From positions 372,001 through 436,000 of the forward strand of contig JBAIAA010000315.1 of NCBI GenBank assembly GCA_037893245.1: a DNA stretch of 64,000 bases, given 5' to 3'. The translations under genes were made by a program, and so were the position numbers. The stretch is from Crossaster papposus. Lineage: Eukaryota > Echinodermata > Asteroidea > Velatida > Solasteridae. Below the pieces are notes generated by a model. The model made no database searches. It saw only the letters and a program-made list of their open reading frames with translations, and was not told where the DNA came from. Positions 8,091-55,524 of the stretch are shown piece after piece (position 1 is the stretch's first letter; the number at the start of each line of letters is the position of its first letter).

Positions 8091-8581
8091 TTCATAAATC
8101 ACCCAATTGCAAGCGAAAGGAAGAAAGTGTAACTTTAAAAAGGAAAGAAGTTAACCCCCGAGCCAGAAATATATATTTACAAAGAAAAGCAAGTCCAGTC
8201 AAATTTCCTTCAACAACAACAAAACTTCTGAGTATTACTGTTCCCCCAAGCCTTGCTTCACTCAATCTTTATGTTTTCGTGATTTTATTACACGGCGGAG
8301 TTTTGCGGGGGGTTTTTGAGGGCGATTTTACAGGTTCAACTTCTTTATACAATTATGTCATTGGAATTATAAAAAAGTCCAGAGGAAAGGAAACAATATC
8401 GAGAAGAAAACGTTGAAACTTTGTAATAGTATATATTTATTGAGACGTAAGATAAAGACAGAGTGTTGAATCCTGTGCCATTTTCTTGGTTCGTATTCCC
8501 TTAAAACACACTATTAAACTTTATCAATGAATGTTTGTCTAACATTTCTGTTTTGTTTCTTTACATGGCTCATCACACAAG

Positions 8582-8596
8582 TATGAAATGGTACCG
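8582..8596 (+). other. Variable microexon-like segment, 15 nt
   Basis: It follows tttctttacATGGCTCATCAC-acaag and precedes gtaagtgtaaattcg. The segment is TATGAAATGGTACCG, a multiple of three, and differs from all other copies although both flanks are conserved. The true acceptor is unknown: either the AG just before the segment, or none, because the usual acceptor position reads AT. An ATG at 8565 gives an alternative reading as a short first exon beginning M-A-H-H. Confidence 0.3.
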
Positions 8597-10165
8597 GTAA
8601 GTGTAAATTCGATTCGCCTTTACTGTTTAACTTCAGAGTTCAAGTATATTTTACGGTTTTGCCATATCTGGTCGATATACGGTCATCAGTGTATATGCGA
8701 ATGTTCTTCGTTAGTTTAACTCTGCCTGAATATCATTGGTTCCATATAAACTCCTACATTGTTCAAGTCAATTACAGGGCTGCAGTATTATTTATTTTGA
8801 CTTAATCTTGTGCAAGACCAAACTTCAAACTTTAAACTACAGTGTTAATAAATGTTACAGAAGTGTCAAGTACACTCATCGATCCTGTCTTGCAAAAAAC
8901 GATTATAGAATGCATACAAACGAATTGTAATTATTTCACTGTCAACCTGCTTTACAGTTTCCACCGAAACATTTTCATGCTGCACAAAAACCTAACATAT
9001 TTACGGGGAAAAGAGTCTGAAGAGTGGCAGAACGATCTTATTTTTGTTTAACGACTTTGTGCCATGCCATGTTTGAGTTCTTGTTGCATACAGATATTAG
9101 TGAATATAGAACCAACTGTGTAATACTATTATGATCAATACACGATATGAATACGACATTGTTCGTATTATTGGTTAAAAGTTACCCGCCATTAATCCCC
9201 AGTTTGCTTTTAACTTTTTATCCGTTTCGGTTGTCAGATAAAAACACAATTTCCGAATGCAATATAATTTCGCTCTGTCCGAAAATTACATCTCGAGTTT
9301 AAATATAAATGGTCATTAAGTTTTATGAACATCTGAATGATTAAGTACACCCCTCGACGCTGTCTTGAAGAATAACACGATGAAGAATGACAAAATGTCA
9401 CTGTCAACCAGCTTTAAACATCTAACAAATATATCGTTGCCTTCACTGTTCATATAAGTTTATTTCACGGTTTCGCCATATTATGTGGTCGGTATACTGT
9501 CATCAGTGTATATGCGATATTTCTTCGTTAGTTTAACTCTGCTTGAAAAACATTGGTTCCATAAAAAAACATTTACATTGTTGAAGTCAATTGCAGGGCT
9601 GCAATATTAAGTCTTTTGACAAACTACAGTGTTAATCAATTTTACCGAAATGTCAAGCACACCCCTGGACCCCGTCCTGTAAAACGATTATAGAATGCAT
9701 TAAAACGAATGGCAATTATTTCACTGTCAACCTGCCTTAAAGTTGCAACCGAATCGTTTCCATGCTGCAAAAAAACCGAACATTTTTACCGCGGAAAAGA
9801 GTCTGAAGAGTGGCAGAACGATCTTTATTTTTTAACGACTTTGTGCCATGCCATGTTTGAGTTCTTGTTGCATACAAATATGAGTGAATATAGAACTAAC
9901 TATGTAATACTATTATGACCAATACACGATATGAATACGACATTTTTCGTATTATTAGTGGAAAGTTACCTCCCAATTATTTACAAATCGTTTCGGTCGT
10001 CAAATAAAAACAATGTATATTTTGGTCCAAGATGTTTTTTCACACGTCTCATTTATTTCCTTGCAGCTGCAATTTGAGCAGTCATCAGTAAGTTTATGCC
10101 GTCATTATTAATGAATGCTTGTCTAACATTTCTGTTTTGTTTCTTTACATGGCTCATCACGCCAG

Positions 10166-10174
10166 AATGTAGGG
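10166..10174 (+). other. Variable microexon-like segment, 9 nt
   Basis: The segment AATGTAGGG lies between catcacgccag and gtaagtgtaaattcg. Flanks match the other array cassettes. In the frame of the upstream ATG this copy contains TAG, so the first-exon reading fails here. Confidence 0.3.
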
Positions 10175-11396: not shown

Positions 11397-11405
11397 ATTT
11401 TACAG
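11397..11405 (+). other. Variable microexon-like segment, 9 nt
   Basis: The segment ATTTTACAG lies between catcacgcaag and gtaagagtaaattcg. The flanks are those of the array cassette. From the upstream ATG it reads M-A-H-H-A-R-F-Y plus two bases. Confidence 0.3.
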
Positions 11406-13372: not shown

Positions 13373-13381
13373 CTTTTTCCG
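13373..13381 (+). other. Variable microexon-like segment, 9 nt
   Basis: The segment CTTTTTCCG lies between catcacggaag and gtaagtgtaaattcg. From the upstream ATG it reads M-A-H-H-G-S-F-F plus two bases. Confidence 0.3.
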
Positions 13382-14082: not shown

Positions 14083-14106
14083 GGCTCAGCAGACCTGGCG
14101 CCATCG
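14083..14106 (+). CDS. Microexon, 24 nt, phase 1-1
   Basis: A proper acceptor (gtttctttacag) and donor (gtaagtgt) bound GGCTCAGCAGACCTGGCG plus CCATCG. In phase 1 it encodes x-L-S-R-P-G-A-I followed by a split Gly codon. Its counterpart in segment 2 is at 55501, which differs inside the exon (R-P-G versus R-R-G), while the adjoining intron is nearly the same. It ends with one base of a codon, whereas the next certain exon (21027) reads open only from phase 0, so direct splicing to that exon is not supported. Confidence 0.45.
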
Positions 14107-14408: not shown

Positions 14409-14433
14409 CCTGCGTGGTCAATGCTTTTTACGG
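14409..14433 (+). other. Possible microexon, 25 nt
   Basis: The 25-nt stretch lies between gaaattag and gtaagta, and segment 2 has a counterpart near 55820-55845 with both splice signals kept. From phase 0 it would end in phase 1. It is small, and splice-like signals are common in AT-rich sequence, so support is weak. Confidence 0.2.
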
Positions 14434-15241: not shown

Positions 15242-15244
15242 AAC

Positions 15245-15535
15245 TAGTGGGGGGCCGTACATGGGTATATTTAGTTTTTCATTTCAAATTGATGCAAAAG
15301 TTTTGTTTTCAGTACCAATTTGAAGGTAAAGGTCTATAGAACAATTTTGGTTCGAGTGTCAAGCACTCAGATCAAAAAATTCAAAATGGCCGCCAAAATC
15401 CAAGATGGCTGCCAATTTCGAGCTTTTTTTTGCATTACGTCTCATAACTTTTGTCCTATGGAACCTAGAATGGTTATTTTGGTGTCTATATCTAGGTTTT
15501 CATGTATGAGTAATTGATTAAAAACAAAATAAACA
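15245..15535 (+). repeat. Left terminal inverted repeat of Academ-like element
   Basis: Matches the complement of 20690-20967. Shared blocks include atttcaaattgatgcaaaag, aacaattttggttcgagtgt and the gccgcc/ccaagatggc region. The two repeats differ by substitutions and small indels. Confidence 0.85.
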
Positions 15536-15794
15536 TGATTGGAATATATCTTATATGGTATTTCACACCAATGAGACAATAAATACAAAATGTGATGATA
15601 CAAATGGGTTATTTGTATCTCTTTCCTGTTGAACCTTTTCTATTTTTCTTTGTTATAGCCATGTCAACGAGCTGAGGATGGTCTGTTTTTGCCAAAATCA
15701 AACCGAAGAAAACCGTTCATTATGCTGATCACTTTCTCTTTCCACCTTGGATTGCTAAGAAGCTGTAATGGGGTTTTTCACTGCAACCTGAAGA

Positions 15795-16106
15795 GACACC
15801 AAGAAAAAACAATATTAAATAACTGCTGTCTGTATGCATAACAATGTTGGATTCATGAAGGGACAGAGACAGGTTACACTGTACAACCCGAATGTATACA
15901 ACCTTGAAATGTATACACCACTTGAAATGTATACAACACTCGAAATGTATACAACACTTGAAATGTATACACTTGTCCAGATGGAGACGTTTAGGTTGTA
16001 CAGTGTAACCTGTCTCTATAGACAGCTGTCCCTTCACGAATCCAACATTGTTATGCATACAGACAGCAGTTATTTAATATTGTTTTTTCTTGGTGTCTTT
16101 CCAGTT
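15795..16106. repeat. Palindrome with tandem core upstream of transposase
   Basis: The arms 15795-15893 and about 16003-16106 are inverted copies, starting gacaccaagaaaaaac and including ataacaatgttggattc. The loop (about 15894-15990) holds four copies of a unit of about 20 bp built on cttgaaatgtatacaaca. The structure lies immediately before the transposase ATG and after a degenerate copy of its N-terminal coding region (about 15670-15715). It looks like an insertion within the 5' part of the transposon. Confidence 0.75.
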
Positions 16107-16116
16107 TGTTTCTAAG

Positions 16117-19100
16117 ATGGCTGGGGTAAGGGTATGGCAGTTGTGTATTTTGTGCCAAAAGCAAACTGAGGAAGTGCTTGTTTGTCCTCTTGCGAATCCA
16201 GTCACCAGTCGAAGAGAGGGAGCCTACACAGAAATCACTAGGCTCGCAAGTCAGTTCAGAGCAATGGGTGCTGCTCCCCACCCAGACGTAGAACTTCCAG
16301 ATGAAGAATCCATGCAGAAGAATCATGCATCCTGGCATAAATCTTGTCGTCAGCTTTACAGGGCATCAGCACTTGAACATTCAAAAAAACGTCATAATGA
16401 AGGATTGCCTCCTGTAAGAAAAAGACCCCGGCGGGGTAATGCAAATGTTAATCGTAATCTGTGTATCTTCTGTGGTGATGAAACAAATGCAGCAGACCAT
16501 TCTTTCCAGAAGGTTAAACTCACCCAACAGATACATGACAAGGCAGTCGCGCTGGAGGAAGAGCGTATCGTGGCACTCCTTGCTGAAGGCGATCTAGTCG
16601 CCATTGAAGCGAAGTACCATCGGAATTGCTACACAGGGTTCAATCGCCGTTACGATGCGATTTGTAAAAAAGACACAGCTAGCGAAAATCTTGAGGCCAC
16701 AACAGAAAATGAATTGCTCCAATTTATAAAGGAAGAAGTCACCGGAGGTCGTAGAATTTTTGCATTGCAAGATCTGACAGATATGATGACCGAGAGACTA
16801 GAACAACATGGGATCCAGAAGACCGTGAACCGGACACGCCTAAAGGAAAGAGTCCTGGAACACTTCCCGAATTTGACAGAGGAGAAAGGTATCCGAGACC
16901 GAGTTTTCATCGTTTGTTCGAAGACGGCTAGAAAGATCATATCAGATGCAACTCAAACACCAGATGAGGAAGCACGTACATTACTTATGGCAGCATCGAT
17001 TCTCCGTAAAGCTGTTTTTGATCATGACACTGCATTCAGGTTTGATGGTTCATTTCCCAATGGTTGTGAAGAATCATCTGTTCCACAACGTATAAAGTAT
17101 TTCTTCCGTCAACTCCTCGCAGGACCCAAATCATCACCAGAACAAGATAATTCCAGGAAGATCCTCTCTGTGAGTCAGTTGGCCATGCTAAATATGACTT
17201 CTCTTTCTTCAAACTTGAATTGTGAGCCTCCACTGGCAGTGTTCCTGGCCCTCAAATTACATTCCCAAACAAGAAGCAAGAAGCTGGTCGAACTACTACA
17301 CAAATATGCTCTGAGCGTGTCATATAAGAAAGTCCTCAGCATTGAATCTAGATTTGCACAGGCTATTGCAGATCAGACAAGGAACAACGCTGATATAGTC
17401 TGTCCTACAAATTTGCATCAGCACATTTTCACAGTTGCAGCCCTGGATAACTTGGATCACAATCCCACATCTCGCACTGCAAGCTCATCCTTCCATGGAA
17501 CTGGTATTTCAATCTTTCAGTTTCCTTCATCACAAACGCCTGGGTTTGACCAAGAATGTCTACGAATCAACTCACAGAAAACAGGAGCACGCAGCAGTGA
17601 ACCCATCCTGCCTCGTTCATATACGTTTGTACCACCTGTGGGCCGAAATCTTGTCACCCAACCTCCGGTAAAAGATGTGCAACCAGTGGCAACGAGTTCA
17701 TTCGATGAGGAGAAACAGCACGAACAGGCATGGATGACTGCAGTGCATGACACCCTATATGTGGATTCTGATACAGAAAAATGCACTCCAGCGATGTGGT
17801 CTTCCTACCATGCTGCTCGATCAGATACTGTTGGACAACCGGAAAAGGGCATTGAAGCCCTTCTGCCACTTTTCCATGAAAAAGCCGCCACTCCAGAAAT
17901 GATTCGACATGGAATGGAACTGGTGAAAAAGACAACCGAACACCTCAACCCACACCAAGTCTCTGTGTTGGTAGTGGACCAACCACTCTATGACCTCGCA
18001 AAAAAAATGCAGTGGACCTTTCCCGACATCTTCGGGGAAGACAAGTTTGTGGTTATGCTAGGTGGGCTCCACATTGAAATGGCTTTGTGGAGCACCATGG
18101 GAGATCTTCTGCGCGGGTGTGGATGGCCTGAAACCCTGAAAAAAGCTGGGCTAGTGAAGACAGAAGCAGCAGCAACAGCTTTTCTGAAAGCATCCAATGC
18201 AATGAGAACAAGGTATGCTCATCAAGTTACTGTTATGGTACTCGACAGCCTTCTGAAGCGAGCCTACGAAGACAGTGGAACCGAGATGGCTTTTGAGGAT
18301 TGGGTCGTGGTAGCTTCTCAACAGAGTCCAACGTTCAAATTCTGGCTACTCGTACACAAGTACCAACAGATCATATTCATGTTCATCCGGGCACATCGGG
18401 AACGGAAAATCGAACTCATGGTCACTACCCTGCGGAAGCTTGTGCCTCTGTTCTTTGCTCTCGATCACCAGAATTATGCTAGGTGGATTCCAATCTTTAT
18501 CCGAGATCTGGAAGTTCTACCAGATAGCATCCAGGCAGAGTTTGAGAAGGGACACTGGACAATAACTCGAAGCAATCGCCGTTTCTCATCCTTACCAATC
18601 GATCAAGCACACGAGCAAGCCAACAAAAGGGTGAAAGGAGTTGGTGGCATTATCGGTCTCACAGAGAACCCTGACATGCTGGAGCGCTGGATCGTGACTG
18701 GCCCGGAAATCAGCCGTGTCGTTGAGGAGTTTACTGGTGCAAACGATAACGATGATGATGAAGAACTCCCTCATCATGAGGAAGGATATGCATCTCAGCA
18801 CCGATTCCTACGCCATGCCAAAGACCTGATTGAGGTGTTTCTGAGCAATGGGAATCCTTTTGATGAGCACAGTGGAGACCTGGTTACATTGGACAACAAG
18901 GTGTGCGAGTCTGCGGCTGCTGCCGTATCTGTCCGTAAAGTCGAGTCTATGGGACAAGAGCAGTACAGCAACTTTAGACAGAGTGTGCTTGACTCAAATG
19001 ACACACCTCTGACAGCACCAATCAAGCGAAACAACTTACTGTTGTTCCATGAGAAGAAAACACAAAAGAAGTCAGCAATTAAGCTAAAAATGCAGCACTT

Positions 19101-20538
19101 CAAACGTCATGCAGAGCTTTATGGGCAAGCTTTTCTTGTACTAGACAGCCGCGGGGGGGATTTGGAGGAGTTTTTTCATCACGAATCTTCCCCATACCCA
19201 CCTGCATTGTCAACCGAAGGGTCCCTCAACTCTTGTACCAAGTCAGATTTGTTGGTATATATCATGGAAGCCAGTACAAGTAGCGCCATTTCTGTCGACG
19301 ACGAGCTAGTTGCGCCAGATAATTACGACTTCATTATTATTGACGGTGGAGTACTGATACACTCACTTCCTGGTACAACTGTCCAAGGAAAGACTTTTGA
19401 TTCATATTTCGACAAGGTATTCTGCCCAAGAGTTCGCCACGACTTGAAGCGATCGACAAGAGTAGATATTGTCTGGGACCAGTATCGTGCACTGACAATC
19501 AAAGGAGGCACAAGGGAAAAACGAGGAACAGGCATCCGACAACGCATATGTGGTACTGCCAAAATCCCAGGAAATTGGCAGCAGTTTCTGGCGAACGCTG
19601 ATAACAAGAAGGAACTGTTCTCATTCCTGTCAAAAAAGATAACAGAAGAACATTTCCCAGATGACAAGAATGTCTACATCACTGCAGGAGATCAAGTCAA
19701 CCATGTTGGAAACAGTCCACCAATGGATCAATGTAACCATGAGGAAGCTGACACGCGTGTCTTAGTACATCTTCTCCACGCCCTCCAATCATCGTCACTT
19801 GGGATGGTGTATACTGGAGACACAGATGTTGTCGTAATCCTTCTAAGTAATTTCCATCACATCAAGGCTCTGAATCCAGCCGCAGAAATCTGGATCTCCT
19901 TCAAAGCGGGAAAGACAACCAGAATGATCTCCCTGAACACTATCGCCACAAACCTGGGCACAACAACGTGCAAAGCCATGGCCCTCTTCCACGCATTCAC
20001 TGGATCAGACAGTACTTCTTCCTTCAAGTTCAAGGGTAAGCGATCCTGCTGCACGTTGATGCACGAAGTGCCATCCCTTATGGAGCAATTTGCAACTATT
20101 GTCGACACTCCATTTCAAACATCGCCAAGGTTGAAAGAAGTGGCAACAAACTGTGTATGTAGGCTGTATTCGAATGAGTCAAACGAGGTCAATGATGTTG
20201 ACCTTGTCCGAATGAGGTTGTTCTCACAGAAGACTAGGGACGTGGAGAGAATTCCCCCAACCAGTGATGCTTTGGATCAACATCTCAAAAGGAGTGTCTT
20301 CCAAGCGAGCATCTGGACAACAGCCCACAGGTCCATGGTGCCTGTCAACAACCCAACTAATCATGGGTGGAAGGAAGAGGACGGCAAGCTGCTTCCCATT
20401 TGGACCTCGCTGCCCCTTGCCAAGGATGTGTTCCACCTGGATGTTAAGTGCGCTTGCCCACTTACCTGCTCTCGGTGCAAATGTGTGAAGACAAAGTTGA
20501 AGTGCACACGTCAGTGCAAGTGTACATGCGAGAAGTAG
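16117..20538 (+). CDS. Academ-type transposase with XPG-like nuclease and CXC tail, 1473 aa
   Basis: The first ATG in the frame is at 16117 (M-A-G-V-R-V-W-Q). The N-terminus has two Cys/His modules: C-I-L-C...H-K-S-C and C-I-F-C...H-R-N-C. The middle has a candidate DDE-type core: V-V-D-Q (D621), G-G-L-H-I-E (H652, E654) and D-Q-A-H-E (D829, E833), preceded by F-A-L-D-H-Q-N-Y-A-R-W. The C-terminal third resembles an XPG/FEN1 or PIN-like nuclease: D-G-G-V-L-I-H (D1076), H-E-E-A-D-T (about 1208-1213), G-D-T-D-V (D1235, D1237) and F-T-G-S-D (D1298). It ends in a cysteine cluster, C-A-C-P-L-T-C-S-R-C-K-C, like a CXC domain. The frame is uninterrupted, so the element may be recently active. Residue roles are inferred from motif spacing. 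An upstream 5' exon is possible. Confidence 0.8.
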   Translation: MAGVRVWQLCILCQKQTEEVLVCPLANPVTSRREGAYTEITRLASQFRAMGAAPHPDVELPDEESMQKNHASWHKSCRQLYRASALEHSKKRHNEGLPPVRKRPRRGNANVNRNLCIFCGDETNAADHSFQKVKLTQQIHDKAVALEEERIVALLAEGDLVAIEAKYHRNCYTGFNRRYDAICKKDTASENLEATTENELLQFIKEEVTGGRRIFALQDLTDMMTERLEQHGIQKTVNRTRLKERVLEHFPNLTEEKGIRDRVFIVCSKTARKIISDATQTPDEEARTLLMAASILRKAVFDHDTAFRFDGSFPNGCEESSVPQRIKYFFRQLLAGPKSSPEQDNSRKILSVSQLAMLNMTSLSSNLNCEPPLAVFLALKLHSQTRSKKLVELLHKYALSVSYKKVLSIESRFAQAIADQTRNNADIVCPTNLHQHIFTVAALDNLDHNPTSRTASSSFHGTGISIFQFPSSQTPGFDQECLRINSQKTGARSSEPILPRSYTFVPPVGRNLVTQPPVKDVQPVATSSFDEEKQHEQAWMTAVHDTLYVDSDTEKCTPAMWSSYHAARSDTVGQPEKGIEALLPLFHEKAATPEMIRHGMELVKKTTEHLNPHQVSVLVVDQPLYDLAKKMQWTFPDIFGEDKFVVMLGGLHIEMALWSTMGDLLRGCGWPETLKKAGLVKTEAAATAFLKASNAMRTRYAHQVTVMVLDSLLKRAYEDSGTEMAFEDWVVVASQQSPTFKFWLLVHKYQQIIFMFIRAHRERKIELMVTTLRKLVPLFFALDHQNYARWIPIFIRDLEVLPDSIQAEFEKGHWTITRSNRRFSSLPIDQAHEQANKRVKGVGGIIGLTENPDMLERWIVTGPEISRVVEEFTGANDNDDDEELPHHEEGYASQHRFLRHAKDLIEVFLSNGNPFDEHSGDLVTLDNKVCESAAAAVSVRKVESMGQEQYSNFRQSVLDSNDTPLTAPIKRNNLLLFHEKKTQKKSAIKLKMQHFKRHAELYGQAFLVLDSRGGDLEEFFHHESSPYPPALSTEGSLNSCTKSDLLVYIMEASTSSAISVDDELVAPDNYDFIIIDGGVLIHSLPGTTVQGKTFDSYFDKVFCPRVRHDLKRSTRVDIVWDQYRALTIKGGTREKRGTGIRQRICGTAKIPGNWQQFLANADNKKELFSFLSKKITEEHFPDDKNVYITAGDQVNHVGNSPPMDQCNHEEADTRVLVHLLHALQSSSLGMVYTGDTDVVVILLSNFHHIKALNPAAEIWISFKAGKTTRMISLNTIATNLGTTTCKAMALFHAFTGSDSTSSFKFKGKRSCCTLMHEVPSLMEQFATIVDTPFQTSPRLKEVATNCVCRLYSNESNEVNDVDLVRMRLFSQKTRDVERIPPTSDALDQHLKRSVFQASIWTTAHRSMVPVNNPTNHGWKEEDGKLLPIWTSLPLAKDVFHLDVKCACPLTCSRCKCVKTKLKCTRQCKCTCEK

Positions 20539-20689
20539 CTGGACTAGAACAATTTCCAATACTAACATGATATAGGTTAATTTGGTTAATTTGTTAGCCA
20601 TTTTCTTATTAAATGTATTGTTCAAGGATTTTTTCAACCAGTTACTCGGAATTAGGACTCAATATAAGAGAAGATATGCTCCAATCATG

Positions 20690-20967
20690 TTTATTTTATT
20701 TTTATTCAATTACTCATACATGCAAACCTAGGTATAGAGACCAGAATCACCATTCTAGGTTCAATAGTACAAAAGTTATGAGGCGTAATGCAAAAAAAAC
20801 CTCGAAATTGGCAGCCATCTTGGATTTTGGCGGCCATTTTGATTTTTTTTATCGGAGTGCTTGACACTCGAACCAAAATTGTTCTATAGACCCTTACCTT
20901 CAAATTGGTACTGAAAACGAAACTTTTGCATCAATTTGAAATGACTGAGTGCCCGGGCACCCCACTA
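20690..20967 (-). repeat. Right terminal inverted repeat of Academ-like element
   Basis: Inverted partner of the left repeat. It ends in CCCCACTA directly before the AAC target duplication. Confidence 0.85.
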
Positions 20968-21026
20968 AACCCCCTAAATCTACCCATTCATGATAATTCA
21001 AGCAATTACCAATGGTTTGTTTTCAG

Positions 21027-21102
21027 GAAACCAGCTTTGCTATAACAGCGGAGAGATCTGTGAATTTACAATCATCTACTGTGGGGGCAATTGGTATCCC
21101 AG
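21027..21102 (+). CDS. Linker exon upstream of ZU5 (segment 1)
   Basis: This 76-nt exon lies between gtttgttttcag and gtatgt. Read from phase 0 it is open (E-T-S-F-A-I-T-A-E-R-S-V-N-L, ending G-A-I-G-I-P) and ends in phase 1, as the ZU5 exon requires. The other frames contain a stop or give the wrong exit phase. The copy at 56704 has the same length and differs by a few residues. The Academ transposon ends only 56 bp before the acceptor side of this exon. I do not recognise a domain; it is likely a flexible N-terminal linker. The exon that precedes it was not found. Confidence 0.65.
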
Positions 21103-21569: not shown

Positions 21570-22222
21570 GCGGTTCGTCCGCTCTGCCAACTCTCCTGAA
21601 AAGGATCCTCGAGAAACACGACCAATTTGCGAAAGGATGCAGCGAAGAGACGCTGAGGAAGAACACCTTCCAGTTGATGTGCATTGCAATCGGTTACTTC
21701 GACCAGGAGGGTGGGAGCCTGTCCTTGAACGAGAACAAAGTCCACCTGTACATCCCCCGTGGGGCACTTCCCAAAGGTCGACTGCAGCAGGTGTATATCT
21801 ACGTCAATCCCAACGCGCCGACAGTTGACGGGGTCAGTCCGTCGGACTGTGTCCTGTCGCCGATGATCCAGTGCGGCCCAACAGGTCTGAAGTTTCTGGA
21901 CAGCGTGGTGCTGTCTTACCCACACTTTGCCCAGGGGGGGAGCGGGTGGAAGTTGAACGTACAGTTGTGCAATGACGAAGGAGGCTCGCCAAAATCATGG
22001 AAGACTCTTGATGCAGACGGCGACGGCATGCTGGTGTCTACCAAAGACCAGACCGTCGTACTCCTGATGAAGCATTTGACAGGGGCAGCTTTAGTGGGCG
22101 AACCATCCGAAACCAGCACCAAAATAATGGAGGCAGGAGTGTTTGGGAGCACCTTTGATCCGTCTGAAAATAACTATCTCTTCCGGATCCACCTCTGGAA
22201 CGATGAACCAAGTGTACAACAG
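21570..22222 (+). CDS. ZU5 domain exon (segment 1)
   Basis: The exon of 653 nt runs from ttattgcag to gtaagc, enters in phase 1 and leaves in phase 0, giving 217 codons. Hallmarks of ZU5 are G-G-S-L-S-L, then H-L-Y-I-P-R-G-A-L-P, Q-Q-V-Y-I-Y-V-N, L-S-P-M-I-Q-C-G-P-T-G-L-K-F, V-V-L-S-Y-P-H-F-A and a following W-K-L-N-V-Q-L. ZU5 is a beta-strand protein-binding domain of ankyrins, UNC5 receptors, ZO-1 and PIDD. Here it is followed by UPA-like and Death exons, as in UNC5 and PIDD. No transmembrane segment is visible, so a cytosolic adaptor is more likely than an UNC5-type receptor, though the N-terminus is not known. The base composition is clearly richer in GC than the introns. Confidence 0.85.
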
Positions 22223-24593: not shown

Positions 24594-24612
24594 GTCTACG
24601 TCACTCTACTTA

Positions 24613-24755
24613 CCTGTAGAGCCACTACATATGCATAGTCCAAGCCGGCAGGCGTCAACGCTAAGATTTTTCTCACAATAGCGCCCCCTATTGACCCTCC
24701 CACAGTGCCCCGCGGCATGGGCGCCATGTTGGCATCCTCTTTTCTCTTAGCGGCC
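24613..24755 (+). repeat. Left inverted terminal repeat of DIRS
   Basis: Inverted match to 30578-30715, including the blocks tgttggcatcctcttttctc and ctcccacagtgccccgcggc. It carries an ATGCATAG-like end motif next to gtagagccactac. Confidence 0.8.
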
Positions 24756-24894
24756 GTGAAGTCAACACGTACTTTTGGACAGCTCCGTCTAAGTGTTTTC
24801 TTCACGAGTCGACGTTAAGGTTTTTTCGTGTATTATTAATAAAAGATTATTGTAGAGTACGATCTTCATTGTGGTTTTGTTTTTTGGAGTGGTT

Positions 24895-29923: not shown

Positions 29924-30411
29924 TCGCTTCGCCTCTCCTCCTCGTTTTTCGGTGAGTGCGACATTGCTCTTCCTCAGATTAACGGATTGGTGATATGATT
30001 TATTCACATGTGCTCGCTTTAACGATTCACGTGTACCTATCTACCTAATTATCGCTTGCCCCAGTGACTTTTTTCCCTCAGGACGGTCTATACATATCAT
30101 CCGTGCTGATGATCTCTATGTCCTCGGGCTGACGAATTTTGGGTTTTCCGCATCCTCCCTTCGATGCTCCAGCCCATTGTTTCCAAGGGTTCTACTTGTG
30201 GTTGATTAAATAAGATACTTTGTCTTGATGCTTATTTACTCCAGACTCAGCCTACTGGTTGTAGGACTTCTTTCGGAGGTTGCACATACAACCTCTGAAA
30301 CAGAGTTTGGAACCGCTTTAGTTAGCACGTCTTATTTGCGACCGTGCAGTTCAGGACCCTTATTCACAGTAGCATCTCGCATACCCACCACCGGTCTACG
30401 GTGCCATATCA
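29924..30411. other. DIRS 3' non-coding region
   Basis: Non-coding sequence lies between the recombinase stop and the internal complementary region. No further domain is seen. Confidence 0.6.
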
Positions 30412-30523
30412 TGCATATGTAGTGGCTCTACAGGTAAGTAGAGTGACGTAGACTCTCCCCCCCCCCCCCCCCCCCCCATAGTAGTGTGGTAGGGGTCTAC
30501 GAATGAATACTTACCTGTAGAGC
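30412..30523. repeat. DIRS internal complementary region with poly-C tract
   Basis: The first half (30412-30455) is the complement of the left terminus, and the second half (30481-30523) is the complement of the right terminus with one mismatch. They are separated by a C21 run (30457-30477). This arrangement is diagnostic of DIRS elements. Confidence 0.75.
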
Positions 30524-30577
30524 TCCCCCCCCCGCCTCCCCACTTATTCTCGATCTTGTGGTTGTGCTTTAGCACGC

Positions 30578-30715: not shown

Positions 30716-30769
30716 AGTATTCGTTCGTAGACCCCTACCACACTACTGTGGGTGGGGGGGGGGGGGGGG

Positions 30770-35428: not shown

Positions 35429-35684
35429 TCGGAGATTGCTGGCGAGAAAGGTTTTCGTCAGCTTGCAGAAAAATTTGGAAAGGAGTGGGAGACAGTGGCC
35501 ACAGAGTTAGGCTTCACTTCGGCGGACCTGTACAAGATAACAACAAACTACAAACATGACGTCGGTGAACAGATATTTGAAATGCTTGTGCAGTGGAGGC
35601 AGCGATGTGGAAAGTTGGATGGAAGCATCTTAGCTGGGGCTTTGAGCAAGGTTGGGCTACATGATCTGGCACAGCAGTTCAAAG
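35429..35684 (+). CDS. Death domain exon (segment 1)
   Basis: The exon is 256 nt, phase 0 in and phase 1 out, between tttttcag and gtgaga. It encodes a complete Death domain of about 85 residues: F-R-Q-L-A-E-K-F-G-K-E-W, V-A-T-E-L-G-F, Y-K-I, Q-I-F-E-M-L-V-Q-W-R-Q-R and L-A-G-A-L-S-K-V-G-L-H-D-L-A-Q-Q-F. The six-helix pattern, the W in helix 1 and the L-x-x-W in helix 4 are typical. Death domains assemble signalling complexes in apoptosis and innate immunity. The exon exits in phase 1, so more coding sequence should follow. The NACHT exon at 41908 enters in phase 1, but no transcript evidence joins them; readthrough into the intron would also terminate after some residues. Confidence 0.85.
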
Positions 35685-36903: not shown

Positions 36904-38880
36904 TCATAAATTGTTATAATCTTGTCTGTTTGAATGTTTGATTTTGATCAGTTCAATCTTACTGTGAAATATACAAGCTTTACAAATCAAGTCGTTGAGG
37001 TTTGACGATCTTCCTGCCGGAACGAGTGAATGTACCGGTAGGTGTGTCTGTGTGAGAGGTGGGGGTAGTTTGCGCGGAGGGTTTGGAGCAGTGATGTCGT
37101 TGCGTGCTGGGTTTGTAGACTTCGGTTGTGCTGGTCTCAGATGAATCCTGTTTCGTCGGAGCTGACTTCCTGTATCAGTTTCCACCTGGAAAGATCGTGG
37201 GGTGACGGATTTGCTCACTATTTTGCCTCTGCTCCACGTCTTGCTAAGTGGGTTTTGGACGTAGACTGGCTGACCTTGGAGGAGGTCTCGAAGTGGGGTG
37301 GTGTGTTTGTTGTAGTTGTCAGCTTGTGAAGACTGGTTCGACGCAAGTTGTGAGCGGACATCCTCGTGATCTGGTGAGGGGCGAGGACGTGAGGGTAGTG
37401 TTGTCTTGTACGTTCGTCTGTTTAGTAGCTCAGCAGGGGACGCGAGGTTGGACTTCAGTGGGGTTGTGCGCAAACTGAGGAGGGCGAGGTTTGGGTCGTC
37501 TCCGGATTCACTGCATTTGCTTAGGATGCGCTTAGTTGACTGAATGTGGCGTTCAATAAAGCCATGGCCTCTGGGGTAGTATGGTGATGATGTCTGAATC
37601 TGGAAACCATACTGCTGTGCTAGAGCTCGGAACTGTGCTGAGGTGAATTGAGTGCCATTATCACATATGATAACGTGTGGAATGCCTTGTTCGGCGAATA
37701 GCACTCGTGTAATTTTGGTGATTGTGTTCGCTGTGAGGTTGTCCAGTTTGCGAATAAAGGGAAACTTTGAATAATAATCTGCAATGATCAAAAATTTGTC
37801 ATGATGGAAGAGGTCTGCTCCCAGTGTGTGCCATGGGCGTGGTGGGACTTCCATGGTGATCATTGGTTCTCGCGGTTGGGACCGTTGGTATTTCTGGCAT
37901 GCTTGACATTCTGTCACAATGTTGTCAATGTCTTTGTAGATTCCTGGCCAATAGACACAGGTTTTGGCGCGCAGTTTACACTTTTCTGCACCTTGATGAC
38001 CGTTGTGGACTTGCTGGAGTATGTCCTGTTGGAGTGTTGCTGGAATCAGGATTCTACTGCCAACTAGAAGTACCCCATCTTCGATCGCGATATCATGTCT
38101 GACTGACCAGTATGGTCTGATGGATCGATGTATCTTCTTGATACTGTCCGGCCAGCCTTCTGTGATTTGCTGTATCAGGAGTTGAAGGTTGGCATCTTTG
38201 GTTGTTTCTTGTTTGATCTTCTCAAGCTTTGTCGGTGTAACACTGACGATGTCGTGTATGCGCACTTTCATGTGCGGGATCGCATGTCTCTCATGCGGCG
38301 ATAGACGTGAGAGAGCATCTGCAACAACCATTTCCTTTCCAGGCTTGTAGCGTAACTCAAAATCATATGCCTGTAGGCGCAGAAGAATTCGCTGTAGTCG
38401 TGGTGGAGCTGTCATCAAGTTCTTCCTGTGGATGTGTTCGAGGGGACGGTGGTCGCTTTCCACCGTGAACTCCCTACCGTAGAGGTATGTATGAAATTTC
38501 TCACATCCGTACATTACTGCGAGTAGTTCTCGTTCAATGTTTGCGTATCGTGTTTCCGCTGGAGTGAGGGCTTTCGATGCGAATGCGATTGGTCGGCCAT
38601 TCTGTACCAGTGTGGCACCCAGTCCCTTGGTCGATGCGTCGACTTGAAGTATTACTGGCTGTTTCCGACAGTAATATGCCAGTGTGGTTTCTGTAGCTAT
38701 CATAGACTTGATAGCTTTGAAGACTTTCGTGTGAGATGGGGACCAGTTGTACTCGACATATTGACGAAGTAGTTCCCTTAGTGGCAATGTGTGGTCAGCC
38801 AAGTTAGGGACGAAGGGGCCCATGTAATTCACTAGGCCAAGAAAGGTGCGTAGTTCCTTTCTGGTACCCGGAGGGTGCAT
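36904..38880 (-). CDS. Gypsy pol, 3' part: RNase H and integrase
   Basis: It continues the reverse transcriptase thumb (R-T-F-L-G-L-V-N-Y-M). RNase H has V-D-A-S-T-K-G-L-G-A-T-L, E-R-E-L-L-A-V and D-A-L-S-R-L. Integrase has the HHCC zinc module (H-N-G-H, then C-Q-A-C) and the catalytic set A-D-Y-Y-S-K, C-D-N-G-T-Q-F and F-I-E-R-H. A C-terminal basic region follows. The frame overlaps the upstream one at 38832-38880 and must join it by a -1 shift within an A run at C-G-G-A-A-A-T-G. A shift inside reverse transcriptase is unusual, so a one-base deletion is the simpler explanation. Confidence 0.9.
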   Translation of the reverse strand: MHPPGTRKELRTFLGLVNYMGPFVPNLADHTLPLRELLRQYVEYNWSPSHTKVFKAIKSMIATETTLAYYCRKQPVILQVDASTKGLGATLVQNGRPIAFASKALTPAETRYANIERELLAVMYGCEKFHTYLYGREFTVESDHRPLEHIHRKNLMTAPPRLQRILLRLQAYDFELRYKPGKEMVVADALSRLSPHERHAIPHMKVRIHDIVSVTPTKLEKIKQETTKDANLQLLIQQITEGWPDSIKKIHRSIRPYWSVRHDIAIEDGVLLVGSRILIPATLQQDILQQVHNGHQGAEKCKLRAKTCVYWPGIYKDIDNIVTECQACQKYQRSQPREPMITMEVPPRPWHTLGADLFHHDKFLIIADYYSKFPFIRKLDNLTANTITKITRVLFAEQGIPHVIICDNGTQFTSAQFRALAQQYGFQIQTSSPYYPRGHGFIERHIQSTKRILSKCSESGDDPNLALLSLRTTPLKSNLASPAELLNRRTYKTTLPSRPRPSPDHEDVRSQLASNQSSQADNYNKHTTPLRDLLQGQPVYVQNPLSKTWSRGKIVSKSVTPRSFQVETDTGSQLRRNRIHLRPAQPKSTNPARNDITAPNPPRKLPPPLTQTHLPVHSLVPAGRSSNLNDLICKACIFHSKIELIKIKHSNRQDYNNL

Positions 38881-41114
38881 TTCCGAAGTGCTTTAACCTT
38901 TTCTGGGTTTGGCTTCACCCCTTCTGCTGAGTACAGTAACCCAAAGAAACTGCACTCTGGTGTCTTGATGACGCATTTGTCTGCATTGAGTTTGATGCCG
39001 GATTTGCGAGTGCGTTCCATGGCCTCATGCAGGTGTATGTCATGGTCACGCTCACTGGAGCCGTATACCTGAACGTCATCCGCTATTCCAACAGTGCCTG
39101 CACATTCACGGTAGGTTTCGTCAACTTTCTGTTGGAAAACATCTTGACTCATCCGAAGGCCAAAGGGCATGCGCAGGAACCTGTACCGTCCGAAGGGGGT
39201 GTTGAACGTAGTGAGGTATGTAGAGTCCTCAGCTAACTGGACGTTCCAGTAGCCGTTTCGTGCATCGAGCTTACTGAACATCTTGGCACCGGATAACTTT
39301 GGGGTGATTTCCTCCAGAGTAGGCACGGGGTAGTGATCTCGCTTGATCGCTTTATTGAGATCCTTCGCGTCGAGGCACAAGCGTAGTCTGCCGTCCTTTT
39401 TTTCACGTATGACAAGGGAGTTCACCCAATCTGTTGGTTTTGATACCTTCGCGATGATGTATTTGTTTTCCATCTTTGTGAGTTCTGCCTTGAGCCTGCT
39501 TTTGAGCTCCAATGGGACTCGGCGTGGTGGGTGTACAACTGGCTTCGCCTCTGGGTCAAGGCTAATGCGGTATTTAAAGTTCACAAAGCACCCAACTGCC
39601 TCATCAAAACAATCAGGGTACATTTCTAGCAGGTCTGCCTTGTCTTTGATCGGTGGTCGATCCTCGAGTGGTCTATCACTGCGAATGTATTTCGGAGACC
39701 TGTGCACTGGAGGTGTTGTAGCAGGCTTGGTTATCGGGTCAGCAAAGTTAACTCGTCGTACTTTACTGGGTCGCATTTGTTCCGTTTTCGGTTCGTGGGG
39801 ACTGGTTGAAATCTTGGGCCCGTTGGTCTCAACCATCGGATTTCTCTCCACAGAGCAGTGCAATGTTATTAGGTTCAAAGCTTGGCACGTTCTCAAACCA
39901 AGGATAGCTGGTCCTGCTGCGTCGGTGACGTAGAAGACACAGCTGTATCTCGTGTCTTTGTAGGCACATGGGAATTTGATGGTACCCAGCTGTGTTATCT
40001 TGGAACCGCCGTATGCTGTGAGAGCCATTTTACTGTTCACTAGGCTCCCGGGCTTTGGGTTCCCCTCACTGTCCAGTTTATCCGGAAAGATGATGCGGAA
40101 GAGGTGAAGGGGTAGTAGGTTGCTCTGTGCTCCAGTGTCAACCTTGCAACGGAGCATGACTGGTCGCCTATTCTTTTGTGTGATACACAGTTTGGCGAAT
40201 ACTTCTTCTCTAGTATCGCCAGTTGATCCAATGCTGCTGACGTCGATTGTGCCAATCGTGAGGAATTCATCAGGGCTGTCATCAGCAACGAGATAGTGGA
40301 CGCGTCTGCGTGGAGACTTGGAGCGTTGATCACGTCCATCGCGTCGCTGGGGTTTCCCAGCTCTGCACACCGACTGCCAGTGGTTGTCTTTTCCACATTT
40401 ACGACATGTGTTGCCATAGGCAGGGCAGTTACTTCTTGGTAGTAGTTCATGTACACGACCACAGTTGTTGCATGTTTTCTGCTTTTGTTGCTTGCGATAC
40501 TGCTTTGGCTTGATTGCGTTCACAGTCCTTTCTGCTCTGGCACTTTGGAAGGTCTGTGCTTTATCTGGCAGTGACTGGAGCTGCTTTGCGGTTGCCTCAT
40601 GACTTCGGGCAGCTTCGATGGCCTCATTCAGTGTCAGAGTTTCGTCTCTCCCAATGAGTGCTTTCTGTACATGTTTGTGGGCTGATCCCCAGATGAGCTG
40701 ATCAACCAGTCTGTCCTCCCGTTCCTTATCATCGCGATATTTGCATTTCACTGCTACTGCTTTTATCTTGGTTACAAAGTCATCAGCAGTCTCGTCCAGG
40801 TTTTGTCTCATGTCCTGTAGTTTGTACCGGAAAATGCGATGGTTTGACCGGGGCTCGTGTTGTTCGAAGCGAGACAACAGCACATCAGGTTTCTTTCTGT
40901 CATCCTCATTATCAAAGCTCCAACTATTGTATTTATCCAGGCCCTGTTCTCCGACCCACAAGAGGAGGTAACTTGCTCTTTCTTCATCAGTGGCAGTCTT
41001 CAGGACACTGGAGAACATCAGTTGGCATTTTTGTTTGAATCTAGCGAAAGTTACGACAATATCTGTGGCCTCCCAATCCATATTGGGGGCAGAAACTGCC
41101 GAGCTGAATGCCAT
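38832..41114 (-). CDS. Gypsy gag, protease and reverse transcriptase
   Basis: An ATG (M-A-F-S-S-A-V-S) opens a 760-residue frame. The gag part is helical with W-S-F-D-N-E. Two zinc knuckles follow, the second canonical (C-R-K-C-G-K-D-N-H-W-Q-S-V-C). Protease has V-D-T-G-A-Q-S-N-L-L. Reverse transcriptase has D-L-N-K-A-I, S-K-L-D-A-R-N-G-Y-W, M-P-F-G-L and I-A-D-D-V-Q-V-Y. Gag and pol are in one frame, with no stop between them. The frame ends prematurely at 38832 because of the one-base shift described for the 3' part. Confidence 0.9.
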   Translation of the reverse strand: MAFSSAVSAPNMDWEATDIVVTFARFKQKCQLMFSSVLKTATDEERASYLLLWVGEQGLDKYNSWSFDNEDDRKKPDVLLSRFEQHEPRSNHRIFRYKLQDMRQNLDETADDFVTKIKAVAVKCKYRDDKEREDRLVDQLIWGSAHKHVQKALIGRDETLTLNEAIEAARSHEATAKQLQSLPDKAQTFQSARAERTVNAIKPKQYRKQQKQKTCNNCGRVHELLPRSNCPAYGNTCRKCGKDNHWQSVCRAGKPQRRDGRDQRSKSPRRRVHYLVADDSPDEFLTIGTIDVSSIGSTGDTREEVFAKLCITQKNRRPVMLRCKVDTGAQSNLLPLHLFRIIFPDKLDSEGNPKPGSLVNSKMALTAYGGSKITQLGTIKFPCAYKDTRYSCVFYVTDAAGPAILGLRTCQALNLITLHCSVERNPMVETNGPKISTSPHEPKTEQMRPSKVRRVNFADPITKPATTPPVHRSPKYIRSDRPLEDRPPIKDKADLLEMYPDCFDEAVGCFVNFKYRISLDPEAKPVVHPPRRVPLELKSRLKAELTKMENKYIIAKVSKPTDWVNSLVIREKKDGRLRLCLDAKDLNKAIKRDHYPVPTLEEITPKLSGAKMFSKLDARNGYWNVQLAEDSTYLTTFNTPFGRYRFLRMPFGLRMSQDVFQQKVDETYRECAGTVGIADDVQVYGSSERDHDIHLHEAMERTRKSGIKLNADKCVIKTPECSFFGLLYSAEGVKPNPEKVKALRKCTLRVPERNYAPFLA

Positions 41115-41427: not shown

Positions 41428-41432
41428 TGTAC

Positions 41433-41907: not shown

Positions 41908-42592
41908 GTATTCCTGCACCAATACATCAGCTTGGCCAGAGACCAGACCAAGTGCCAGCGTTGGCGGCTTCTAGTCCTGAAGATGAAGATGTAAGTAACA
42001 AGACCAGGGATATTTTGAAGAGAGTTTATAAAACAACAGGCAGCTACGTACAGATGTTGCCTGACGTTGATAATGACCAGAAGCACATAGCTGGCATATA
42101 CACTAAAGTACAGTTAGAAACACGGGAAGGGGTAGCAGTTGTCACTGACCAGAAAAGAGAAACTGTAAACTCAACAGATCGAGTATGACAAAATATTCAG
42201 ATTAAGATCAAGAACTGGGAAACTTATCAAACGCCTCGTTTACTGTGGTATGGGAGGGGTCGGTAAATCAACCATTTTTGGCAAGATTGTATACGATTGG
42301 GCCGATGAAGTAAGCGAAATCCTGAACAGATTCAAGCTCGTCTTTCTTTTAAAGATGTGTGCCATGTTGCAGGAATCTAATCTTGTTGATTCCTCTTTCG
42401 ATCATCTTCTCGGCAAAGATTTGGGAATAGCAAATGATGAACTTGATAAATTCATCATGACTAACCCTAATGAGGTCTTGATTCTTTTGAATGGTTTCGA
42501 TAACATTAGGACCAAACCACTCGATGCGGCCTCATTCGGTTCTATCTTCAAAGCGCTCGATAGAAAATACAGCGAATGTCTCATATGTGTCA
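41908..42592 (+). pseudogene. NACHT NTPase exon, truncated with in-frame stop (segment 2)
   Basis: This duplicate of 6928-7614 starts in phase 1 after taaatag with I-P-A-P-I-H-Q-L-G-Q. Its first part is open for about 93 codons (D-I-L-K-R-V-Y-K-T-T-G-S-Y-V-Q-M), then hits TGA at 42186-42188 through the same extra base (GTATGAC) as the first copy. In the shifted frame the P-loop domain resumes: G-G-V-G-K-S-T near 42253, E-V-L-I-L-L-N-G-F-D-N-I, then R-K-Y-S-E-C-L-I-C-V. After this, homology switches abruptly to array intron (ttcttcgttagtttaactct), so the rest of NACHT is missing. The Asn changes in Walker B are shared with the first copy. Likely a relic. Confidence 0.75.
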
Positions 42593-45732: not shown

Positions 45733-45753
45733 CCCCTATCCATGCAGCTATCG
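45733..45753 (+). CDS. Microexon, 21 nt, phase 1-1
   Basis: A proper acceptor (gtttttttacag) and donor (gtaagtg) bound CCCCTATCCATGCAGCTATCG. In phase 1 it reads x-P-I-H-A-A-I plus one base of a Gly codon. It belongs to the same cassette family as 14083 and 48333. Confidence 0.4.
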
Positions 45754-46364: not shown

Positions 46365-46373
46365 ATTAAAGAC
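46365..46373 (+). other. Variable microexon-like segment, 9 nt
   Basis: ATTAAAGAC between catcacgcaag and gtgagtgtaaattcg. From the upstream ATG it reads M-A-H-H-A-R-L-K plus two bases. Confidence 0.3.
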
Positions 46374-48332: not shown

Positions 48333-48356
48333 AGCTTATCACGCAAGGTGCGAACG
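48333..48356 (+). CDS. Microexon, 24 nt, phase 1-1
   Basis: Acceptor gtttctacacag and donor gtaagtgt bound a 24-nt exon reading x-L-I-T-Q-G-A-N plus one base in phase 1. Copies at 51554 and 54768 are identical. Confidence 0.4.
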
Positions 48357-49583: not shown

Positions 49584-49592
49584 GTTAAAGAG
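49584..49592 (+). other. Variable microexon-like segment, 9 nt
   Basis: GTTAAAGAG between catcacgcaag and gtgagtgtaaattcg; the same segment recurs at 52798. Confidence 0.3.
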
Positions 49593-51553: not shown

Positions 51554-51577
51554 AGCTTATCACGCAAGGTGCGAACG
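51554..51577 (+). CDS. Microexon, 24 nt, phase 1-1
   Basis: Second copy of the L-I-T-Q-G-A-N microexon with intact acceptor cacag and donor gtaagtg, 3221 bp after the first. Confidence 0.4.
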
Positions 51578-52797: not shown

Positions 52798-52806
52798 GTT
52801 AAAGAG
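52798..52806 (+). other. Variable microexon-like segment, 9 nt
   Basis: GTTAAAGAG, identical to 49584-49592, in the third tandem unit. Confidence 0.3.
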
Positions 52807-54767
52807 GTGAGTGTAAATTCGATTCGCCTTTACTGTTTAACTTCAGAGTTCATATAAGTATATTTTGCGGTTTTGCCATATCTGGTCGATATACTGTCAT
52901 CAGTGTATAGGCGATTCTTCTTCGTTAGTTTAACTCTGCCTGAAAATCATTGGTTCCATAAAAAACTCTTACATTGTTGAAGTCAATTGCAGGGCTGCAA
53001 TGTTATATCTTTTGACTTAATGTCGTGCAAGACCAAACTCCACTTTAAACTACAGTGTTAATCAATTTTACCGAAATGTCAAATACACTCATGGACCCTG
53101 TCTTGTAAAACGATTATAGAATGCATACAAACAAATGGTAATTACTTCACTGTCAACCGAAACATATTTACCGGAAAAAGTGTCTGAGGAGTGGCAAAAC
53201 GATCTTTATTGTTTTAAACGACTTTGTGCCACGTTGCAACCCCCGCAATGATATTGGTCATTTTAACAAAAAATATTGGTCAAAATAACAAATATTTAGG
53301 TTAAAATTAACCAATATATTGGTAGGACACATATCCACCAATCAATTAGTTATTTCCAACCAATCTGTTTTTAGGGTGTAGTTGTAAATTGTGGAAGCAA
53401 TTCTCTCTGCCAGGAAACGTTAGTTTGCTGAAATGCAAGATTTCCTTTGACGAAACTCCACTTTAAATTTAGTCTTACTTTATTTTACCGAAAACAAATT
53501 TAAGCCGAACCAAACAAAATGTCATCAAGTAGTGGGTTTGTAAGTTTATGCTGTCATTAGAGAGGTTGATATTTTACAACGTATGCATGTGCGTGTATAC
53601 GTAAGCATACTATCCGTTTACCAACAACAAAAAAACACGTTCTCACTTTTAATCTTAAGCGCATGTGTGTGATTTCATGTGTTCAAAACCAAGTTTACCC
53701 TAAATGTTGACAACATTTTAAGACGATTGCCTTGCGATACCAACAATAGTATGAAATCAGTTTTGTTATTTTATAAATATACTGATTTATGATGCCTTGT
53801 AGATTGGCTACCTTGTGGTTTAGCGCTATTGTTCGTCAGTATCGATCGCTTTCCATTTTGCCGCATACATACCTACGTAGTACATTAATCTTATAGTCGG
53901 ATTTGCCATAAAGAGTCAATTTTTCATGGTTTGGCCAGGGTTGGTTCAGATTAAACAACCTGTTCCATTATGGTCATCAAAGAGGAGTTGAATCACTTTG
54001 TTTATCACTCGTGAGAGTTCATTATGCCGGTGACATATAAATATCGGGTTAAACCCTCCCACGTGACCGGTCAATATCCTAATTATCTTCACTTAGCCAT
54101 GCGCAATACTATACAAATGAGTCCGGATTTTATAAAGTCTGAAATTCATGCCAAAATAAAACCAGACGTCCAAAATTTGGTCAAATGTCCTCCAGGCGAT
54201 TAGTGTATGCAAGTCGTATCAGTACTGTGCAATTCCCCTCAACTCCTACCACTGTACCGTTTAGGAACGTAATGTTGTTCGAAAGTCCTAATGATGAGAA
54301 CAGTCGAAGAACATCGGGCTTATCAAATCGGATAATCTTATGTATTACGCGGATATGTACGTATACGTTTTTTATTTAATTTTGATCTCCCCAATATACA
54401 TTTTAATACAGTGGGCCTACATAATATTTTCGTCTGCGTTGTTATTTATCGCTCATTCCCTTCTTATTTATTATTTTACTGAGGTTCAAAGCAACCACAG
54501 ACTGAGTGAAAATGCTACCAACATCCAACGAATGTCGCTGGGTCAAAATGATCGAGATTATCTTTATATGACTGTTTACACACAATGCCTCTGGGCGAAC
54601 TGTCTAGAATTATTCCCTCATCTGTTTTAATGAAGTATCAGTTGAAGACGCGAGACGAAGACAAATTGTTCAACCCTGTGCCATTTTCTTGATATTTCTT
54701 TTCTATATACACACAATTAAACTGTATCAAATAATGTTTTTCGAACAACTCTTTTGTTTCTACACAG

Positions 54768-54791
54768 AGCTTATCACGCAAGGTGCGAACG
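54768..54791 (+). CDS. Microexon, 24 nt, phase 1-1
   Basis: Third copy of the L-I-T-Q-G-A-N microexon, with intact splice signals, 3214 bp after the second. The following intron differs from the other two units and matches 13400 onward. Confidence 0.4.
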
Positions 54792-55500
54792 GTAAGTGTA
54801 CATTCGATTCGCCTTCACTGTTTAACTTCATAGTGTTTATTTCACGGTTTTGCCATATCTGGTCGAAATACTGTCATCAGTGTATATGAGATTTTTCTTC
54901 GTTAGTTTAAATCTGCCTGAAAATCATTGGTTTCATATAAACTCTTACAGTGATGAAGTCAATATTACAGAGCTGCAATATTATATCTTTTGACTTAATG
55001 TCGTGCAGGACCAAACTCCACTTTAAACTACAGTGTTATTCAATTTTACCAAAATGTTGGTGAATTGTTTAAAAAATGTTTTAAAATGAGTATTACTGTT
55101 TCCACAAGCCTTGCTTTATTCAATCTGTCTGTTTTCGTGATTTCATTACACAGCGGAGTTTTGCGGGTTTTTTTGGAGGGCGATTTTACATTATTTTACT
55201 GAGGTTCAAAGCAACCACAGACTGAGTGAAACTCCCACCAACATGAAACGAATGTCGCTGGGTCAAAATGATCGAAGTTATCTTGATACGACTGTGTACA
55301 CACAATGTCTCTGGCGATTAGGAGTTTTCTGTCTAGAAATATTCCCTCATCTGTTTTTTGTTTATGAAGTATCAGTTGAAGACGAAGATGATTACAAAGT
55401 GTTCAATTCTGTGTCATTTTCTTGGTATTTATTTCCGTTATACACACAATTAAACATTTTCAATTAATGTTTTTCTAAAATCTCTTTTGTTTCTTTACAG

Positions 55501-55524
55501 GGCTCAGCAGACGCGGGGCCATCG
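55501..55524 (+). CDS. Microexon, 24 nt, phase 1-1
   Basis: Acceptor gtttctttacag and donor gtaagtgt; reads x-L-S-R-R-G-A-I plus one base in phase 1. Counterpart of 14083-14106. Confidence 0.45.

Follow-up and report, generated by a model that had tools for sequence, protein, structure and literature searches.

Introduction

Can exons of three to nine codons serve as units of protein diversity? The question is raised by a 64,000-nucleotide (nt) stretch of animal DNA from the asteroid Crossaster papposus (C315:372001-436000 of a 1.02 Gb assembly in 1841 contigs), referred to here as the window. It carries two tandem gene copies with Pfam matches to NACHT, ZU5 and Death domains, together with an array of short exon cassettes in which near-fixed splice signals surround a variable core. 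A first-pass annotation of the same DNA had placed thirteen such cassettes in this array and had suggested the diversification of a short peptide. The cassettes are quite probably interchangeable micro-exons of phase 0-0, which would be selected by splicing and would diversify short N-terminal peptides in ZU5-Death genes. What carries this proposal is their anatomy, their frame, the depletion of stop codons and a faster change of the exons than of the introns.

Cassette anatomy and reading frame

Inspection and a profile scan run over the window on both strands find exactly these 13 cassettes, at the positions first given for them; the next match has an E value of 0.36. Each contains a near-fixed block made up of a branch-site-like motif, a pyrimidine tract and a donor. 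Six of the 13 have an acceptor AG followed by a core of 21 or 24 nt (AG class), as had been described. In the remaining seven, ACAT replaces ACAG, and a variable stretch of 9 or 15 nt, correctly noted as a multiple of three, precedes the donor (AT class). The substitution is real, but the lack of an acceptor attributed to these seven is not: a second AG (CAAG, CCAG or GAAG) ends 15 nt further on and abuts the variable letters in 7/7.

When the profile scan was run over the window and 33 loci fetched from the same genome, 145 matches yielded 105 distinct parsed cassettes. The array is thus present at 8091..55524 as reported but is not confined to the window, since 92 of the 105 lie outside it. 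The loci were picked around the matches of a search that scored 40 of 387 candidates, and the number and density of cassettes are therefore not genome-wide figures. Eighteen matches remained unparsed; these lie at locus edges, repeat one place, have tracts or donors missed by the parsing rule, or belong to three broken places. The rule requires an AG, and 0/18 failed for lack of one.

The AT class accounts for 42 of the 105 parsed cassettes. A downstream AG stands immediately before the variable part in all 42, displacing the exon start by 15 nt in 39 and by 10 nt in three. Because this AG adjoins the variable letters, the variable 9 or 15 nt would be the entire AT-class exon. An earlier AG within the tract of three AT cassettes gives 18-nt exons in which the frame is kept. 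Judged from these signals, the AT cassettes do not look dead. The cassette at 48333, which holds both the acceptor AG and the downstream AG of the AT class, looks like an intermediate between the two classes. Four ACACAG cassettes were kept out of the AT class in the class-wise count of stop codons and in the comparison of pairs described below.

Exon length is divisible by 3 in 105/105 parsed cassettes (9, 12, 15, 18, 21, 24 or 27 nt), including 92/92 outside the window. Among 76 distinct exons, phase 0 contains no stop in 419 codons, while the other two frames contain 14/343 and 13/343 (Fisher 2.5e-6). The AT cassettes of the window had already shown phase 0 to be open before the cassettes outside it were tested; the latter gave 0/368 stops against 13/302 and 10/302 (66 distinct exons). 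For the AT class the figures are 0/120 against 7/84 and 11/84 (36 distinct exons, p 7e-5). The array is also flanked in phase 0, at the end of the pre-array exon in 6/6 distinct copies and at the start of the linker exon in 9/9 copies. The predicted frame of the micro-exons is 0-0, in whole codons that match both flanking exons. The first-pass annotation had assigned phase 1-1, which is ruled out by the phases of the flanking exons and by stops, three among 10 distinct window exons and 11 in 84 codons of the AT class.

The T of ACAT also makes an ATG, which would turn the AT cassettes into alternative first exons encoding MAHHA and a variable tail. The ATG is retained in 7/7 AT cassettes of the window, and an in-frame path to the linker exon can be drawn by way of a 25-nt exon-like element (14409, 55823). 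However, an in-frame stop precedes the donor in 7/42 AT cassettes, against 0 in the shifted-acceptor frame, and a first exon would have no need of a conserved branch-site-like motif and pyrimidine tract. The reading was dropped on account of the stops and is hardly probable at all.

The 25-nt element itself lies beside the array (14409-14433 and 55823-55847) and has splice-site-like ends. Its copies differ at 4/25 positions, a divergence that does not differ significantly from 28/391 (p 0.12), and because of its length it would break a phase-0 chain. Structured RNA was considered and dropped, since four folds gave z-scores without a consistent sign (1.98, -0.60, -2.35 and 0.31), and no known RNA family or tRNA was matched. 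A scan for the cassette pattern gave 0 matches in viral contigs; in bacterial and archaeal genomes it gave 74 matches to 17 letters, about the number expected by chance on our own estimate, and these were not used.

Core variation and selection

The peptide-coding cores vary beyond their near flanks, a difference that the first-pass annotation had left open to chance. In the AT class of the window, 9/9 core columns are variable against 19/102 flank columns (Fisher 1.4e-6), and no other 9-nt segment of the core and near flanks varies as strongly as the core. Minimum changes per site are 1.1-1.3 in the core, 0.05-0.10 in the flank from -60 to +90, and mostly 0.17-0.45 in distant homologous intron, with a few bins outside that range. 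When non-homologous flanks were kept in, 5/197 and 5/235 flank windows of the window matched the variability of the core. The four distinct AG-class exons of the window show 17 changes over 21 columns. Pairwise tests within the window with a fixed 24-nt core, which included the constant 15 nt and some self-overlapping pairs, were mostly not significant.

Pairs of cassettes from the window and fetched loci give a direct comparison with intron. In 17 AT pairs matched by far-intron similarity, differing sites amount to 58/165 (35%) in the exon, 372/7381 (5%) in the far intron (>70 nt left and >90 nt right of the exon) and 92/2651 in the near intron. Equality of core and flank variation, named at the outset as what would refute peptide diversification, was not found in these copies. 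The exon lies above the intron rate in 13/17 pairs and is identical in 4/17, and the near intron is more conserved than the far intron (p 0.0008). For 24 AG pairs the counts are 77/534, 486/10851 and 139/3631 for exon, far intron and near intron, respectively.

This bears on the view of the cassettes as pseudo-exons in decay, in which the AT class has lost its acceptor and drifts. Decay would fit the ACAT found in 42/105 cassettes, the three places that are truncated or donor-less, and the ZU5 exons, which look nearly neutral between the two window copies (dN 0.041, dS 0.049, with copy 1 coordinates one base off). Drift, however, would not outpace the surrounding intron, would not give zero stops in one frame only, and would not leave every length divisible by 3. 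Decay is very unlikely.

Changes in the encoded residues predominate. The ratio of non-synonymous to synonymous differences per site (pN/pS) in phase 0 is 1.55 in the AT class and 2.37 in the AG class, whereas the wrong frames give 0.47-0.88. Where AT pairs differ little (8/17), 8 differences are non-synonymous and 0 synonymous, and the AT-class bootstrap places the lower limit of pN over intron at 5.1. In AG pairs of moderate divergence (21/24), pS is 0.036, close to the intron's 0.045, and pN is 0.095. Entropy by codon position in 36 AT cassettes is 1.88, 1.68 and 1.00, compared with 0.21-0.35 in the flanks. The ZU5 exon of the same genes, taken as a control in 7 of 9 copies (the other two being incomplete or offset), has a mean pS of 0.048, a pN of 0.032 and a pN/pS of 0.67; unlike the micro-exons, it evolves normally. 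Both pS and the neutral intron rate are exceeded by pN in the micro-exons, a pattern of diversifying selection. The diversification of a short peptide, suggested when the array was first annotated, draws support from the core and flank rates, the frame test, the codon-position pattern and pN/pS.

Two processes other than selection on the peptide could make cores and flanks differ. One is gene conversion, which would homogenize the flanks and leave core differences that are old rather than accelerated. The cassettes are indeed mosaic, with exchange points close to the exon, and their near flanks are more similar than their far flanks; but far introns too have diverged about 7-fold less than AT exons, conversion alone leaves unexplained why codon positions 1 and 2 vary more than position 3, and the keeping of core differences would itself require selection. 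Conversion is an unlikely sole cause. The other is mutation targeted to the core, as in somatic or element-driven hypermutation, which would account for clustered core changes such as 7/9 sites against 4/160 in the near flank. It is highly improbable, for the codon-position bias and the avoidance of phase-0 stops require selection at the protein level.

Several observations weigh against diversifying micro-exons. The shifted AG of the seven AT cassettes in the window scores poorly, -1.8 to 4.1, on a generic acceptor matrix. Three cassette places are broken, being truncated or without their donor (C315 741250, 745705 and 554969), and no 5' exons were recognised upstream of the pre-array exon of gene copy 2 within the window. 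Taken by itself, the AG class is only modestly depleted of stops (0/299 against 7/259 and 2/259, p 0.03), and column-shuffled 9-nt cores were stop-free in 1% of trials. The AG class is also uneven: 11/24 pairs lie above the intron rate and 10 have identical exons, while one of the 24 mixes an AG with an AT cassette and two set clearly different exons together (16 of 24 sites). The AT-class bootstrap of pN/pS spans 1.0-3.0, and AT-class pS, at 0.247, is itself above the intron rate. Because pS is raised too, some AT-class changes appear to replace whole codons. The last base of the exon, which the donor consensus holds in place, counts among the third codon positions. The selection tests rest on few pairs, related cassettes and a biased sample of loci, and since the cassettes are related and exchange sequence, the p-values overstate independence.

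The host genes and their surroundings

The pre-array exon is 83 nt long and open, with the same donor, gtaagtaac, in 6/6 distinct copies found by an exact search for its start motif. In the window copies it ends in GAAGAT; the linker exon after the array begins with GAAACC. The candidate upstream exons of copy 1, including an ATG exon at 2538, preserve frame, and nine copies enter the ZU5 exon in phase 1. The ZU5 exon matches the UNC5B structure 3g5b (E 9e-12), and both a ZU5 and a Death domain are present in the genes. No ZU5 was found in a search of viral contigs. A candidate UPA exon at 60933-61113 has no Pfam match at E 0.1. The end of the ZU5 exon reads KHFT in 7/9 copies and KHLT in one, and in another the sequence stops after KHF. 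As predicted from these exons, the genes encode ZU5-Death proteins of immune type with a low-complexity N-terminal region, and the N-terminal surroundings of the cassette-encoded peptide look unstructured, judged by eye.

The NACHT fragment lies behind an intact pre-array donor and is truncated and frame-broken in 6/6 copies examined. For these reasons it is taken to be an intronic relic, and with no intact domain an NLR identity of the gene is ruled out. The fragment ends at approximately the same residue in the six copies, with a poly-C run there in 5/6. The two window copies align without an indel across the 728 nt of their ZU5 and linker exons, whereas 18 events are counted where 2130 nt of intron are aligned. 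The NACHT relic stretch of 353 nt is also free of indels, and the absence of indels is therefore poor evidence of function.

Mobile elements and repeats are found around the genes. A long open frame at 16090-20538, with a DUF6589 match below the Pfam cut-off, is bracketed by 284-nt inverted repeats (15279-15562 and 20661-20944) and is probably a DNA transposon. Another element, at 24594-30732, has weak RNase H and phage-integrase-like matches, both below Pfam cut-offs, and 153-nt inverted repeats; we take it to be DIRS-like. Frames of a Gypsy-type retrotransposon lie between the two gene copies on the minus strand (36904-41114), and an 82-nt tandem repeat of AACCAAT/ATTGGTT units is present at 4446-5265.

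Table 1. Predicted features of the window, in order of position
Feature	Position	Strand	Details
Candidate first coding exon, copy 1	2538..2580	+	ATG, MDEQKAQPTPSAAT, phase 0 to 1; open frame and donor only
Linker exon	3233..3340	+	phase 1-1
Linker exon	5781..5873	+	phase 1-1
Linker exon-like copy	6247..6338	+	phase 1 to 0
Pre-array exon, copy 1	6928..7010	+	83 nt, phase 1 to 0, donor gtaagtaac
NACHT fragment, copy 1	7269..7610	+	intronic relic; Pfam PF05729; runs out in poly-C, frame breaks upstream
Micro-exon	8582..8596	+	15 nt, YEMVP, shifted acceptor
Micro-exon	10166..10174	+	9 nt, NVG, shifted acceptor
Micro-exon	11397..11405	+	9 nt, ILQ, shifted acceptor
Micro-exon	13373..13381	+	9 nt, LFP, shifted acceptor
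Micro-exon	14083..14106	+	24 nt, GSADLAPS
Post-array linker exon, copy 1	21027..21102	+	phase 0 to 1
ZU5 exon, copy 1	21570..22222	+	Pfam PF00791
Death domain exon, copy 1	35429..35683	+	match extent; Pfam PF00531
Pre-array exon, copy 2	41908..41990	+	83 nt, phase 1 to 0
NACHT fragment, copy 2	42250..42591	+	relic fused to array repeat
Micro-exon	45733..45753	+	21 nt, PLSMQLS
Micro-exon	46365..46373	+	9 nt, IKD, shifted acceptor
Micro-exon	48333..48356	+	24 nt, SLSRKVRT, both AGs
Micro-exon	49584..49592	+	9 nt, VKE, shifted acceptor
Micro-exon	51554..51577	+	24 nt, SLSRKVRT
Micro-exon	52798..52806	+	9 nt, VKE, shifted acceptor
Micro-exon	54768..54791	+	24 nt, SLSRKVRT
Micro-exon	55501..55524	+	24 nt, GSADAGPS
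Post-array linker exon, copy 2	56704..56779	+	phase 0 to 1
ZU5 exon, copy 2	57555..58207	+	KHFT motif
Death domain exon, copy 2	63479..63734	+	Pfam PF00531

Comparison with known systems

Arthropod Dscam has clusters of duplicated alternative exons between constant exons, and its variable exons are much larger than 3-9 codons. The arrays described here resemble it in their duplicated, putatively alternative exons set between constant ones and differ in having 3-9 codons per exon.

As a precedent for symmetric micro-exons under a raised dN/dS, the schistosome micro-exon genes (MEGs) come closest; they combine very small symmetrical exons and alternatively spliced protein variants with gene duplication and an enrichment of transposable elements (PMC4350168). 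In the asteroid genes, by contrast, a single cassette recurs in tandem within a ZU5-Death gene, its splice signals conserved and its core hypervariable. In MEGs, micro-exons make up the bulk of what codes for a gland or secreted protein, whereas here there is a ZU5 exon of 653 nt and a Death exon of about 256 nt. In snake venoms, the process named ASSET radically replaces short exon segments in toxin paralogs (PMC2711939); here the cassettes lie in arrays inside one gene.

With respect to domain order, the genes resemble CARD8 and NLRP1, in which an unstructured N-terminal region precedes ZU5-UPA and a death-fold domain, and the variable part is positively selected. The disordered N-terminus of CARD8 is described as a rapidly evolving protease tripwire (PMC10249858; PMC11760013), and HF/S and SF/S are given as autocleavage sites (PMC3210808). 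The HF/T at the end of ZU5 is comparable to these sites, with T in place of S, and one copy has HLT and one ends after HF; autocleavage here is putative. The asteroid genes differ from CARD8 and NLRP1 in having a Death domain rather than a CARD, and in variation that would come from micro-exon arrays. They also resemble UNC5 and PIDD, which are ZU5-UPA-Death proteins, in that the ZU5 match is followed by a Death domain. Unlike UNC5 and PIDD, they have no receptor ectodomain or leucine-rich repeats recognised in the frames examined, and their candidate UPA exon is without a Pfam match.

A possible mechanism and its meaning

Micro-exons of 9-27 nt would be spliced in between a pre-array exon that passes from phase 1 to 0 and a linker exon that passes from 0 to 1, in genes whose products would run from a low-complexity N-terminal region through ZU5 to a Death domain. 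Near-constant splice signals would thus frame a variable peptide of 3-9 residues, hypervariable in the AT class. In that class the first acceptor would have been lost and the downstream AG would have taken over, leaving mostly three codons with the frame unchanged. Growth of the array through duplication and exchange shows in units that are nearly identical and in flanks that are mosaic; tandem duplication and unequal exchange would multiply and shuffle the cassettes, and diversifying selection would alter the encoded residues. We infer that cassettes are spliced in alternatively, so that each gene would give several versions of its protein.

More tentatively, and by analogy with the disordered N-terminus of CARD8, the variable peptide may be a bait for pathogen proteases placed ahead of a ZU5-UPA-Death signalling module. 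It is similarly speculative that the germline has a repertoire of interchangeable three-codon cassettes through which an innate death-domain sensor family might show many short baits by splicing, and so track fast-changing pathogen proteases or effectors. Residues that change this fast would fit a peptide engaged in an arms race. No description of such arrays was found in the open-licence literature, as searched through titles and abstract openings of top-ranked results. To our knowledge, the three-codon cassette, strongly selected and framed by near-constant splice signals, looks like the smallest diversified exon unit.

The cassettes suggest how a downstream AG can stand in for a lost acceptor without loss of frame, and, if spliced in as predicted, they would open the tripwire idea to direct testing in an animal group new to it. 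If the bait repertoire is real, it would be a miniature segment-shuffling immune system. If the cassettes are spliced as predicted, these genes would show how an animal gene family could assemble its receptor variety out of exons of only a few codons.

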